The position numbers and the translations under genes were made by a program. The notes below the pieces were generated by a model. The model saw nothing but the letters and a program-made list of their open reading frames with translations. It had not been told where the DNA came from and ran no database searches. Positions 3,421-38,521 of a stretch of 39,165 bases of DNA are shown piece after piece (within the stretch, counting starts at the first letter, position 1; every line of letters starts with the position of its first letter). The stretch comes from a virus. The stretch spans positions 1 through 39,165 of IMG/VR virus record IMGVR_UViG_3300042397_001415; one strand, written 5' to 3'.

Positions 3421-3429
3421 TTATCCACA
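3421..3429 (+). other. Perfect DnaA-box match in a short intergenic gap
   Basis: TTATCCACA matches the bacterial DnaA box consensus exactly. It lies in the 67-nt gap between the VRR-NUC gene and the next ORF, downstream of a weak -35-like TTGACG (3392-3397). A chance occurrence is possible. It gains some interest because the phage encodes a DnaA domain IV protein and has a second perfect box at 35556-35564. Confidence 0.35.
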
Positions 3430-4831: not shown

Positions 4832-5449
4832 TCAATACCCTCGATCACCTTCGCCCAACGGCTGCCATTTAACCAGTCGTGTCCAATTGGCTTTGACATA
4901 GCGTTCAGCAAAAGGTTGGCGTAACTTTAACCGAGAAACCATGCGTTCGATGCTAGGGTGGTAAGTTCCCATCCTAGCATCTTCGTTTGTGTAGAGATTA
5001 GGGTCAATTGGATCAATGTCGCTCCAATACCCCTTGGCGACATAAGGGCTGTCAGAACGAATCATTGATCGCGCCTGTATCCGATATTCGGACGCCATGT
5101 TTTCGCGTTTGTAAAACAGCTTGATCGCGGCGATCTCGATGGCTTGACCAGTCAATTCCCGATCATCTAGGTTAAATGGAATTAGGCGAAGCGTAACAGC
5201 CATCATGAATGCCACGCCAGCGGACGCCAGAGTGCCACACAGCGCATCATCAAGCCCAAGGGCATGTCCGCCCCATGCAGCAGCCCATAGCGCCACAGGG
5301 ACGCCCCAGAACCAAAAAACATAACGGGTAAACTCGTACCACTCCTGAAGCAGCACGGCAGCAAAGTATCGTGTGCCGGTGTGAATCTTAATTCCACTCG
5401 GCCCGTTCTGGGCAAAGTGCCTATCGTTCTTGATGATCTTTATAAACAT
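4832..5449 (-). CDS. Membrane protein of unknown function at the end of the late operon
   Basis: A 205-aa protein with two adjacent hydrophobic segments (about residues 42-60, FVFWGVPVALWAAAWGG-like, and about 70-92), then a soluble charged C-terminus with DDRELTGQAIEIAAIKLFYKRE. It lies just downstream of the spanins and overlaps the i-spanin end by 29 nt. Position suggests a lysis-associated or host-membrane function, but I recognise no family. It is the last gene in the long - strand transcription unit. Confidence 0.6.
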   Translation of the reverse strand: MFIKIIKNDRHFAQNGPSGIKIHTGTRYFAAVLLQEWYEFTRYVFWFWGVPVALWAAAWGGHALGLDDALCGTLASAGVAFMMAVTLRLIPFNLDDRELTGQAIEIAAIKLFYKRENMASEYRIQARSMIRSDSPYVAKGYWSDIDPIDPNLYTNEDARMGTYHPSIERMVSRLKLRQPFAERYVKANWTRLVKWQPLGEGDRGY

Positions 5450-34198: not shown

Positions 34199-34291
34199 CC
34201 CCCATACGATTCACGACGAAAAATTTTGCCCCCCATACGATTTATGGAGCAAAATTTTAGCCCCTATACGATTTATGGGCCAATTTTCTGC
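34199..34291. repeat. Three 31-bp direct repeats
   Basis: The word ATACGATT occurs at 34204, 34235 and 34266, exactly 31 nt apart. Each is preceded by a C-run (CCCC/CCCCT) and followed by TATGGrsCAAAATTTT-type sequence (the first copy is more diverged). The third copy overlaps the stop codon of the 66-aa gene. Iteron-like; no spacers, so not CRISPR. Confidence 0.75.
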
Positions 34292-35457: not shown

Positions 35458-35608
35458 TCACCTAAAAAGGCCCTTGGTGTGGATCACCTACTTTCACCTA
35501 CCCTATAGGGTTTAGGTGAAAATAGGTGATGACTTTCCACACCTTTACCACGCTATGTGGATAACTTTCACCTAATCACCTTAGGTGAAATTAGGTGAAA
35601 ATAGGTGA
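35458..35608. repeat. TAGGTGA iteron-like array with a perfect DnaA box; candidate replication origin
   Basis: Ten copies of AGGTGA/TCACCT occur at 35458, 35484, 35494, 35514, 35524, 35568, 35576, 35583, 35593 and 35603, several exactly 10 bp apart. Dyads include TCACCT-T-AGGTGA (35576-35588) and a ~30-bp symmetric block centred on CCCTATAGGG (35501-35510). TGTGGATAA at 35556-35564 is a perfect reverse DnaA box; TGTGGATCA at 35478-35486 is one mismatch off. Three further copies lie in the adjoining gene (35753-35778). The primase-helicase and DnaA domain IV genes lie immediately upstream. Confidence 0.7.
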
Positions 35609-35841
35609 TGAACCGAAATCCATGTATTATCAACGACTTGATAGCAAATATCACGTTTCCCATGGGCATAGACATCAATTTGCTCAACATCCGGTGCAAA
35701 AGCCTTGGTAAAATCGATTGTGCCTCGCATATCAGGCGCATTTTGCTCTGCTAGGTGATAGGTGATGTGTTTAGGTGATGTGATTTTGATACAAATCACA
35801 TGGCAACCCATGCTTTCAATCCATGTCCCGTCATCAATCAT
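35581..35841 (-). CDS. Small hypothetical protein, 3' end in the repeat array
   Basis: An 86-aa acidic protein (MIDDGTWIESMGCHVICIKI, then K-H-I-T-Y-H-L-A-E-Q-N-A-P-D, I-C-Y-Q-V-V-D-N-T-W-I). No family recognised. GGAGGAGG precedes ATG 35841 at a good distance and the start overlaps the primase-helicase stop. Its last codons (H-H-L-F-S-P-N-F-T) are read from the TCACCTA repeats, and an inverted repeat GTGATTT/AAATCAC (35780-35799) lies within it. Confidence 0.6.
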   Translation of the reverse strand: MIDDGTWIESMGCHVICIKITSPKHITYHLAEQNAPDMRGTIDFTKAFAPDVEQIDVYAHGKRDICYQVVDNTWISVHHLFSPNFT

Positions 35842-37891
35842 ATTTGCCTCCTCCTTCATTTTTAACCATCATCCAAATACCGCTATAAGGCTCTCCGATG
35901 ATCCTCCAGCCATGTTCGAACGGCTCGATAATATTAGCGGTCAGCATAGGCAGGATCAGCCCGTCCTTTCTGGATGAGTCCAGCTTGTTACGGATGGTGG
36001 TTTCTTTCCAGTCAGCATTGCCCGCGAGAAAGTCTTTGAAGCCCGATCTGGATAGATAGGGATGCCCATCGCGCACCTCCTGTCCAGTCATGTCCCAAGC
36101 CCTTCGCATTAGCCTGAGGTTCTCATCATGTTTACTAGGCTTCTTTCTAGGCTGTTCTGCGGCAGCCTCCTTATCCTCGACGGCAACGCATGTCGTGGCT
36201 GGTTTACCAAACTTGGTCTGGCCCATCTCGACCGTTTCCAGCTTGAAATAAATTATGTCGCCCTTGGAAGGCAATTCTCTCTGCTTTGTGACCTCGGCAG
36301 ACCTTATGCCTCCTTTTTCCGAAATCTCGATTTCAGTATCAATATGCGCCCTGATCCCAGACCAGCCGCGAGCGCCCTTGGCAGCATCTTTACCATTGTG
36401 GTGAATAATGATCATTGTAGCGCCTGTAGCGAGGCTTACATGCTCAAACCTAGCCATGACAGGCCCCATGTCCTCGCCGCTATTCTCATTGGCCCCAGCG
36501 GACATTCTGGCGAGGGTATCGCCTATGACGGCCCCGCACTTTTTGCCCCGCTCTCGCTCGATCTCCTTGATAGCCTCAATTACGTCGAACGAGTCGCCCT
36601 CATTGGAGTAGAAGTTTAACGGTACTGGCACGACGGCCACATTTTCGAGAACAACGCCATAATATGCCTTGATGGCTTGCAGGCGCGTCTTGATGCTGCC
36701 GGGGGCCTCACAAGCCAGATAAACCACAAGACCTTCCTCGACCTGTCTGCCGCAGAATGGCTGGCCCGTGGCAATTGATGCCGCCAATGACAATGCCCAG
36801 AAGGTTTTGCCTGAGTTGGAGTCACCATAGATCACTGCTGTCGATCCAGCCACAAGCAGGCCCTCTACCAATTCATCTGGTGGCTCATAATCTTGCCCAA
36901 GTTCGTTACCGAAGACGATCTTTAGCTTCTTGACGATCTCTTGGCCGCTAGGTGGCTCAAGCAAGATTTTGAGATTACCACCCTCTGCCAGATAGTCATT
37001 GGCATCGCCTAGGGACGGCGGCATCACCACCCTTGCACCATATTTGGCCGAAGCCTGATCGGCATATTTCTGGCCGGTCCCAGAGGCATCATTATCAGCC
37101 ACAATGACAATGTCCTGCGAAGCACCATATTTCTCTCGGATCGTGCCGGTGACTGGGACAAGGTTCGAAGCCGAGTAGGCCACGATACATGGCCGGTTGG
37201 TCACCTCATTGATCGTCGCGGCAGTGGCGAAACCCTCGGCCACAAAGATCGTGCCAGCCTCATCGAGCGTCCCGACCATCCAAAAGCATCCGCCGGTCTG
37301 TCCGCCGGAATGATAAAGCTTGCCCCCTTCAGCATCAATATACTGAAGCGAGGCCAGTTTACCGTCCGGTGTGTAAAGAGGGAGCATCAAGCGACCGTCG
37401 CCGGTCATTCTGGCACCGTGGAGGCCGATACCCTTGCGAGCCAGATAGGGATGCTCCGGCGTTGCCAACATGCCATCTGACCATATCTTTTCGACGGTGT
37501 CCGAAGCCATGTCACGGGTGCGCTTGAGATCGGCGTCCCTGATGGTCCGTGCCTCGGCCAATCGACGGGCATTCACCATCTTTTCGCTGTCGGTCAGGGT
37601 CCGCCCTATGTCGGCACAGAAGGTAACTTCGACCCCAGCCCGCCAGCAGCCAAATCGACCAGACGGGATGCCGTCCGAGAAAACCACATACCAACCCGGC
37701 TTATCGTGACCGGCCTTACCTTTCGTGCCGGAATTAAAGCGATGCAGCTTCCCATCGAACAAAATTTCGTTTGGCGGTGACAGACCAGCCGACAGCATTG
37801 CATCCCTTAGCTGGGTCTCTGGCGAATCGGGTTTAATCTCTTTGGGAGGCGACCACGGCCCCCCGAAGATATTTGATAGGTTTCCGCTCAT
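35834..37891 (-). CDS. Primase-helicase (Toprim + RepA-like AAA ATPase)
   Basis: A 685-aa replication protein. The N-terminal part (residues ~1-135) resembles the zinc-less primase region of phage/plasmid primases; a Toprim domain follows with E219 in V-F-V-A-E-G and A-D-N-D (265-268). The second half is a RecA-like hexameric helicase of the RepA/AAA_25 type: Walker A G-D-S-N-S-G-K-T (356-363), Walker B V-I-G-D (455-458), H497-H498 in I-I-I-H-H-N-G. The C-terminal ~100 residues look like a winged-helix domain. It should prime and unwind at the phage origin. It starts at an ATGA overlap with the DnaA-like gene. Confidence 0.85.
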   Translation of the reverse strand: MSGNLSNIFGGPWSPPKEIKPDSPETQLRDAMLSAGLSPPNEILFDGKLHRFNSGTKGKAGHDKPGWYVVFSDGIPSGRFGCWRAGVEVTFCADIGRTLTDSEKMVNARRLAEARTIRDADLKRTRDMASDTVEKIWSDGMLATPEHPYLARKGIGLHGARMTGDGRLMLPLYTPDGKLASLQYIDAEGGKLYHSGGQTGGCFWMVGTLDEAGTIFVAEGFATAATINEVTNRPCIVAYSASNLVPVTGTIREKYGASQDIVIVADNDASGTGQKYADQASAKYGARVVMPPSLGDANDYLAEGGNLKILLEPPSGQEIVKKLKIVFGNELGQDYEPPDELVEGLLVAGSTAVIYGDSNSGKTFWALSLAASIATGQPFCGRQVEEGLVVYLACEAPGSIKTRLQAIKAYYGVVLENVAVVPVPLNFYSNEGDSFDVIEAIKEIERERGKKCGAVIGDTLARMSAGANENSGEDMGPVMARFEHVSLATGATMIIIHHNGKDAAKGARGWSGIRAHIDTEIEISEKGGIRSAEVTKQRELPSKGDIIYFKLETVEMGQTKFGKPATTCVAVEDKEAAAEQPRKKPSKHDENLRLMRRAWDMTGQEVRDGHPYLSRSGFKDFLAGNADWKETTIRNKLDSSRKDGLILPMLTANIIEPFEHGWRIIGEPYSGIWMMVKNEGGGKYD

Positions 37892-38232
37892 CTACTTGCT
37901 CTCTCTATGATTTTAGAAATTGCATCAATTTGCCCGACTAACTTTTTGTCTTTTCTAAGCAAATCATCGATAACTGCACAGCCGTGCATAACTGTCGTAT
38001 GATCGGTGCGTTCCAAGCTGTAAGCAATCCGCTGATACGACAGGTGCTGGCAGTGCCGACGCATCATATAGTAAGCCGTGTGTCTTGCTATACAAAGTTT
38101 TTTAGCACGGCTGGGAGATTTCAAATCCTCCACCGATACTGCCATGATTTTGCTCACGGCGTTAATTACCAATGGCGCAGACGCACGTTTTGGTTTCCGC
38201 TTTTGCGGAGGCTCATACCATGTTGGGAACAT
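37888..38232 (-). CDS. DnaA domain IV (DNA-binding domain) protein
   Basis: A 114-aa protein equal to the C-terminal DNA-binding domain of DnaA: I-N-A-V-S-K-I-M-A-V-S-V-E-D-L-K-S-P-S-R, then A-R-H-T-A-Y-Y-M-M-R, L-S-Y-Q-R-I-A-Y-S-L, and the signature D-H-T-T-V-M-H-G (residues 77-84), close to D-H-T-T-V-L-H-A of DnaA. No AAA+ domain is present. It should bind DnaA boxes, either to mark the phage origin or to compete with host DnaA. It lies upstream of, and coupled to, the primase-helicase. Also annotated in phages as DnaA-like or chromosomal replication initiator domain protein. Confidence 0.85.
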   Translation of the reverse strand: MFPTWYEPPQKRKPKRASAPLVINAVSKIMAVSVEDLKSPSRAKKLCIARHTAYYMMRRHCQHLSYQRIAYSLERTDHTTVMHGCAVIDDLLRKDKKLVGQIDAISKIIERASR

Positions 38233-38405
38233 TAGCGGTCCCCAGCCAGATAGTCGGACAAGGATTTAATAACCTTGATGGTCGGGTTGACATTCTCGCC
38301 ACGCCGGATGCGCGAGATGGTCGAGCGCGATACACCCGTCGCCTTCGCCACCACATCCAATCGGCGATCCGCCAGACCCTCTGCAATCTTTTCTAAACTA
38401 AGCAT
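38232..38405 (-). CDS. Cro/CI-type HTH regulator (57 aa)
   Basis: MLSLEKIAEGLADRRLDVVA then K-A-T-G-V-S-R-S-T-I-S-R-I-R-R-G-E-N-V-N-P-T-I-K-V-I-K-S-L-S-D-Y-L, a complete HTH_3 domain of lambda repressor/Cro type with the recognition helix S-R-S-T-I-S-R-I-R-R-G. AGGAAGGAATAAAA precedes ATG 38405. It is first in the - strand replication operon, next to the divergent control region, the normal place of an autoregulator. TAATG overlaps the DnaA-like start. Confidence 0.82.
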   Translation of the reverse strand: MLSLEKIAEGLADRRLDVVAKATGVSRSTISRIRRGENVNPTIKVIKSLSDYLAGDR

Positions 38406-38521
38406 TTTTATTCCTTCCTGCTAAAATTCGCTTTTGTGCTTTACAATGGGTATTTTAATCCGTAAAGCAGTTTTTACACACCGACCGGATAGTCCAACTG
38501 GTGTGATGCAGGAGAGCCATT
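38406..38521. promoter_or_regulatory. Divergent control region
   Basis: A 116-nt space between two divergent operons. It contains GCTTTAC (38438-38444) and GTAAAGC (38462-38468) as a perfect 7-bp inverted repeat separated by 17 nt, with TTTACA as a -35-like element within each arm reading in both directions, and an A/T-rich centre (TATTTTAATC). The ribosome sites AGGAAGGAA (-) and AGGAGAG (+) lie at the edges. It probably holds two promoters and the operator of the neighbouring HTH protein. Confidence 0.6.

Follow-up and report, generated by a model that had tools for sequence, protein, structure and literature searches.

The window (the whole stretch of DNA that was analysed) is a phage contig of 39,165 bases with genes for terminase, portal, tape measure, tail, exonuclease, helicase and a Sak4-like annealing protein. 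Read along the minus strand, an HTH protein is followed by a protein with DnaA domain IV, a Toprim/AAA_25 primase-helicase, a small gene, a repeat array and a further gene. A domain search found Toprim_3 plus AAA_25, Bac_DnaA_C and HTH_3, in agreement with a preliminary description that had placed replication genes beside the array. The AAA_25 match of the primase-helicase has an E-value of 1.3e-32, and in the PDB its helicase half is matched best by RSF1010 RepA (1g8y, E 1.9e-13). The features referred to below are the following:

35458 to 35463, minus strand: lone half-site past cluster H2, found in the repeat scan
35476 to 35543, minus strand: cluster H2, half-sites 35484 and 35494 against 35514 and 35524, with a 2-nt bulge and a TATA loop (35504-35507)
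35476 to 35483 and 35536 to 35543: outer stem of H2, GGTGTGGA and TCCACACC
35556 to 35564, minus strand: perfect DnaA box TTATCCACA, between H1 and H2
35564 to 35612, minus strand: cluster H1, half-sites 35603, 35593 and 35583 facing 35576 and 35568; hairpin-capable, with the 3+2 arrangement also found in relatives
35581 to 35859, minus strand: small gene between primase-helicase and array, its 3' end entering H1
35753 to 35778, plus strand: three extra AGGTGA copies (starts 35753, 35760 and 35773) in the small gene
35834 to 37891, minus strand: primase-helicase, with Toprim_3 (residues 215-305), RecA-like AAA_25/RepA helicase (331-503) and a C-terminal domain
35837 to 36133, minus strand: the primase-helicase's C-terminal domain (roughly residues 587-685), which is proposed to read the repeats
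35969 to 36007, minus strand: candidate reading segment KETTIRNKLDSSR, residues 629-641 of the C-terminal domain
37888 to 38232, minus strand: DnaA domain IV protein (Bac_DnaA_C, E 3.2e-18), which keeps the DHTTV motif
38232 to 38405, minus strand: HTH protein (HTH_3), not regarded as reader of the repeats

The array at 35458-35608 holds ten copies of AGGTGA in 151 bp, in both orientations: minus at 35458, 35484, 35494, 35568 and 35576, plus at 35514, 35524, 35583, 35593 and 35603. Nine of the ten extend to TAGGTGA, and exact 10-bp steps separate 35484/35494, 35514/35524 and 35583/35593/35603. The commonest hexamer per 151-bp stretch reaches at most 6 copies in 30 dinucleotide shuffles, against 10 in the window. 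The dyads are nested: ACCCTATAGGGT (35500-35511) lies within AGGTGA pairs, and these lie within the GGTGTGGA/TCCACACC stem. Our recount thus recovered what the preliminary description had reported here, including the 10-bp steps, the nested dyads, the perfect DnaA box and the three further copies in the adjoining small gene. This small gene is real, as shown by a homologue at the same place in the relative L006 (40% identity, E 7e-21); L086 and most other relatives are without it, and at the matching place the L006 homologue has no counterpart of the three extra copies.

Other features of the neighbourhood were noted in passing. Three CATAAATCGTATGGGGG-like copies at 31-bp steps occupy 34200-34280 (minus strand), directly before a TGACAAATTTGTCA palindrome; copies of this motif also occur at the same place in L086 (around 4860-4960), and they are perhaps a regulatory array. 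In the divergent promoter between the HTH and Sak4 genes (38406-38521) lies an imperfect palindrome, TGCTTTAC...GTAAAGCA, a possible operator of the HTH protein. The GC-skew minimum falls at the divergent promoter, 2-3 kb from the array, in the window as well as in the phages PB15 and CGphi29; as evidence for an origin GC skew was dropped, being confounded by gene direction.

A search with the primase-helicase yielded 80 loci, which three further searches and cultured phages brought to 213 distinct loci. An array was scored where some hexamer occurs 6 or more times in the 220 bp just 3' of the gene; this is the case for 191 of the 213 distinct relatives and for 8 of 511 control stretches. Because members of one class descend from a common ancestor, the loci do not count as independent events. 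About 22 of the 213 have no evident array directly 3' (e.g. L175, L179, L189 and L227-L231), and a search for displaced arrays in four array-less relatives found none. The layout is shared: H1, with three half-sites against two, is followed by a short spacer and then by H2 with its outer stem, in which a dyad centred on a CTATAG-type sequence has two or three half-sites before it and two after it. The repeat itself varies by lineage (AGGTGA, AGGGGC, GGGTCA, GGTAAC, GGGACA and others) and is uniform inside each array. Nearly all of the first 80 loci have an array of the same plan with AGGGGC replacing AGGTGA, the latter being common only to close relatives and L007/L008. The same layout is seen in the cultured phages CGphi29 (a Salicola phage, TGTCCC), PB15 (an Alteromonas phage, TGAACC), 1N2-2 (TGTACC) and XX1924 (an Alteromonas phage, TGAACC), and with still other repeats in Burkholderiales and sphingomonad genomes. 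On this comparison the array of the window is the local version of a family-wide element.

The DnaA box is a less regular part of it. Two perfect boxes were found in the whole window, where about one is expected by chance and 26 of 100 shuffles reach two; therefore only the position of the box and its conservation in relatives count. A same-strand box near the array occurs in 36 of 80 distinct loci, so that more than half have none; it lies 130-134 nt past the gene in 34 distinct loci and 272 nt past it in L004/L005. DnaA boxes are 21 times as dense near the array as in the remainder of the loci. We regard the box as an accessory and not a defining part of the element, at variance with iteron origins of the P1/F/pSC101 type, which have it as a regular part. 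The gene for the DnaA-like protein was detected only in the closest relatives of the window. This protein is possibly an accessory that binds the box; elsewhere the partner, if any, would therefore be host DnaA. L086 keeps the DnaA-like protein and has no perfect DnaA box. The second perfect box of the window (3421-3429) is away from every repeat array examined.

Both clusters have marked folding potential. As single-stranded DNA, H2 of the window reaches -25.1 kcal/mol (z -7.0 on the minus strand, z -8.4 on the plus strand) and H1 -11.7 kcal/mol (z -5.8); over 76 loci the fold z has a median of -3.2 (control mean -0.4), and some of the low scores arise because the array is displaced outside the stretch tested. 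To count compensatory changes, 40 elements of the AGGGGC class were aligned. In H1/H2, both partners of a pair have changed in 93 cells, whereas shuffles give 33 such cells and slid controls 7-21. Pairing in the outer stem reaches 99.5%, and three of its pairs have 12, 9 and 17 compensated cells; two loop-adjacent pairs have 20 and 16. By two other measures of this alignment, how many pairs have any double change and how many further pair types occur, the elements do not exceed the shuffles. The sequence of the outer stem varies: GGTGTGGA/TCCACACC in the window, GGGTGA/TCACCC in L006 and GAGACAC/GTGTCTC in CGphi29. The folding potential and the compensatory changes show that the H2 arms are able to fold as hairpins, which may have a function of their own.

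It might be argued that the repeats of an origin act here as duplex DNA, the palindromes being kept perfect by template-switch correction and the hairpins having no function of their own. This is a variant of the reading that we prefer (the array as a replication origin, see below) and disputes its hairpin step only. One-step correction would be expected to leave nearly no G-T intermediates in H2, as is indeed observed (829 Watson-Crick pairs, 3 G-T, 0 A-C), and to produce uniformity across the array. It is less easily reconciled with the outer stem, which is not made of repeats, or with the 5'-side bulges and the loop, all kept across lineages, and pRN1 required an intact stem (PMC4234260). 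We consider a role as duplex DNA alone less likely than not, though it is the most serious of the alternatives. Two strong hairpins with compensatory changes could also point to a structured RNA (a terminator, attenuator or regulatory RNA) in the primase transcript. But H2 is almost wholly Watson-Crick, and the mismatch pairs of H1 (71 G-T, 56 A-C) are without clear G-T bias, which argues for DNA and not RNA; the pair types of both clusters show no RNA-like strand preference, and an Rfam search gave no match of note. An RNA would moreover leave unexplained that the repeats are uniform per array and matched to a protein segment, and it seems very improbable.

As reader of the repeats the preliminary description had proposed the HTH protein or the DnaA-like protein, and this proposal did not hold. 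L086 keeps both (the HTH protein near-identical, the DnaA-like protein 89%) beside a different array, with GTAA/TTAC 13 times and AGGTGA not at all. The genes upstream of AGGGGC-class primases vary, encoding HTH proteins of at least five types, a GIY-YIG-like protein or other proteins; the HTH protein, of which at least five types or none thus precede primases that all use AGGGGC, was rejected as reader and is probably a regulator. The DnaA-like protein was rejected as determinant of the repeat, and it might still bind the box. The same observations bear on the idea that the array is not an origin and serves as operator or attenuator for the HTH protein, controlling the replication or late operon. 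The HTH gene does head the operon in most relatives, and repeats at helical steps fit cooperative binding of a repressor; against this stand the position of the array at the 3' end of a gene, the diversity of HTH types before AGGGGC arrays and the near-identical HTH protein of L086, and we give such an operator little chance.

A better candidate for the reader is the C-terminal domain of the primase-helicase. Nucleotide identity between L086 and the window is 84-99% over HTH, DnaA-like and Toprim sequences, 23-59% over the helicase half and array, and 99% in the next gene. At the protein level Sak4, HTH, DnaA-like protein and residues 1-300 of the primase-helicase are near-identical, and from about residue 306 identity is 12-40%. 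L086 is a natural recombinant, the result of a cassette exchange; the joints, within L086 1-5793, are sharp and lie at the Toprim/helicase boundary and just before the next gene. A second pair, L083 and L079, is mostly more than 90% identical in nucleotides up to about residue 580 (helicase 99% in amino acids), whereas the C-terminal domains share 34% of amino acids and the AGGGGC array is absent in L083. In both exchanges the C-terminal domain and the DNA that follows it moved as one. Downstream of 2093, L083 has no repeat array that could be clearly defined; C-terminal domains of the L083 type (also in L234 and L235) are followed by AT-rich DNA with TACACTA/TAGTGTA motifs and a ATTAACGTAAGTTAAT dyad. 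It has also been considered that the array is a packaging (pac/cos) recognition site, since cos sites carry repeat arrays too and the small terminase gene is about 4 kb away, but the array goes with the C-terminal domain in the two swaps and stays beside the primase-helicase gene while its distance to the terminase varies, which makes a packaging site scarcely credible.

Within the C-terminal domain, residues 629-641 go with the repeat: NKLDSSR with AGGTGA, NKTEASR with AGGGGC, NMVNPSY with GGGTCA, QYxKPSx with GGTAAC, QHLKPSE with GGTAC, KACAPND with GGGACA, VYIKPSA with GGAAC, NYTKVSY with GGTTCA and NYMKASY with GGTACA. The segment, nearly fixed in the AGGGGC class, was picked by eye from the alignment before the later loci (from the three further searches) were fetched. 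Similarity of repeats follows similarity of segments given the rest of the domain (partial Mantel r 0.35, 0 of 2000 permutations, 63 distinct segments, with phylogeny only partly controlled); the reverse test on these segments gives 0.12 (4 of 2000 permutations). One relative, L164, has no array although its segment predicts GGGTCA. In Pfam the domain obtains weak, sub-threshold winged-helix matches, and these only in the distant relatives L096/L099; its profile has no match in the PDB. A plasmid search with helicase plus C-terminal domain as query found helicase homologues only, none covering 80% of the query.

Several known systems follow a comparable plan. In PICIs the ori lies directly 3' of rep, and a rep-ori segment drives a plasmid (PMC6092414). 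The pri-rep-ori order of SaPI/PICI is like that found here: the ori is directly 3' of the initiator gene, where 191 of 213 relatives have the array against 8 of 511 controls, and has two element-specific sets of short repeats. In PICIs these flank an AT-rich region; the spacer between the two sets of the window is 56% AT. The primase is sometimes fused, recalling the fused primase of the window (PMC6092414). Unlike these satellites, the window is a full tailed phage (with terminase, portal, tape measure and tail genes), with a RecA-like helicase of RepA type and hairpin-forming clusters. For SCCmec Cch2 the isolated C-terminal domain binds direct repeats 3' of its own gene, and inverted repeats are not needed for binding (PMC7581432); Cch2 differs in being a 3'-5' helicase, Cch/SaPI Rep-like, with a separate polymerase-primase. 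In pRN1 a stem-loop of about 100 nt 3' of the primase-helicase gene is required for replication, with compensatory rescue, and the stem-loops of pRN1 and phage BIP-1/BPP-1 are conserved in structure and not in sequence (PMC4234260). The stem-loop 3' of the primase-helicase gene likewise keeps its structure here while the sequence changes between lineages. On the other hand, pRN1 has an archaeal-type (archaeo-eukaryotic) primase and an SF3 helicase, against Toprim_3 and RecA-like AAA_25 in the window, and no repeats, and specific protein binding was not detected there.

RSF1010 (IncQ) shares the RepA helicase family (1g8y) and, as summarised in PMC4234260, has repeats and priming hairpins. It uses three proteins, of which RepC reads the repeats, whereas one polypeptide is proposed here for all three jobs: the repeat goes with the domain at the C-terminus of the helicase protein itself, and the L086 and L083 swaps exclude the neighbours. 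Phage P4 alpha, in the account given in PMC4234260, is a single protein with a Toprim-type primase, a helicase and, at its C-terminus, a winged helix for origin binding. Compared with P4 ori/crr, the array of the window is directly downstream and hairpin-forming. The helicase of P4 alpha is presumably of another type than that of the window. No description of this class of phage origin was found in the open-licence papers searched. Our best reading is a known plan (that of SaPI/PICI, SCCmec Cch2 and pRN1) that would here be built on a helicase of RSF1010-RepA type fused to a Toprim primase.

In view of the precedents of Cch2, PICI and pRN1, we consider it probable that the array is a phage replication origin and that the primase-helicase, whose gene lies just upstream, binds it with its C-terminal domain. 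Four lines of sequence comparison point this way: the conserved place and layout, the lineage-specific uniform repeat, the joint transfer of array and C-terminal domain in two recombinants, and the association with 13 residues. The candidate origin of the preliminary description gains support from its place and layout, kept in 191 of 213 relatives, and from the precedents, which are close and experimental; origin activity is what we infer from these. Several primase-helicase molecules would bind the AGGTGA half-sites of both clusters through their C-terminal domains, and binding would assemble the hexameric helicase of RepA type on the DNA, in some lineages perhaps with help from DnaA or the phage DnaA-like protein at the DnaA box. 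The DNA would then open at the dyads, with possible participation of the hairpins into which the H2 arms can fold, after which the fused Toprim domain would lay primers, as its family suggests.

To our knowledge, the origins of most phages are unmapped. If our reading is true, visual inspection would suffice to locate the origin in hundreds of uncultured phages, and about 13 residues of the initiator would be enough to predict the specificity of that origin. An initiator helicase that reads repeats behind its own gene, a principle known from satellites and plasmids, would then also operate in ordinary tailed phages whose helicase is of RepA type. The natural domain-swap pairs make origin recognition directly testable. 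We tentatively suggest that a large group of phages may carry a swappable initiation cassette, consisting of a C-terminal reader and a matching hairpin-repeat origin, whose specificity would diversify by a readable residue-to-base code, probably against cross-use by co-infecting phages or satellites.
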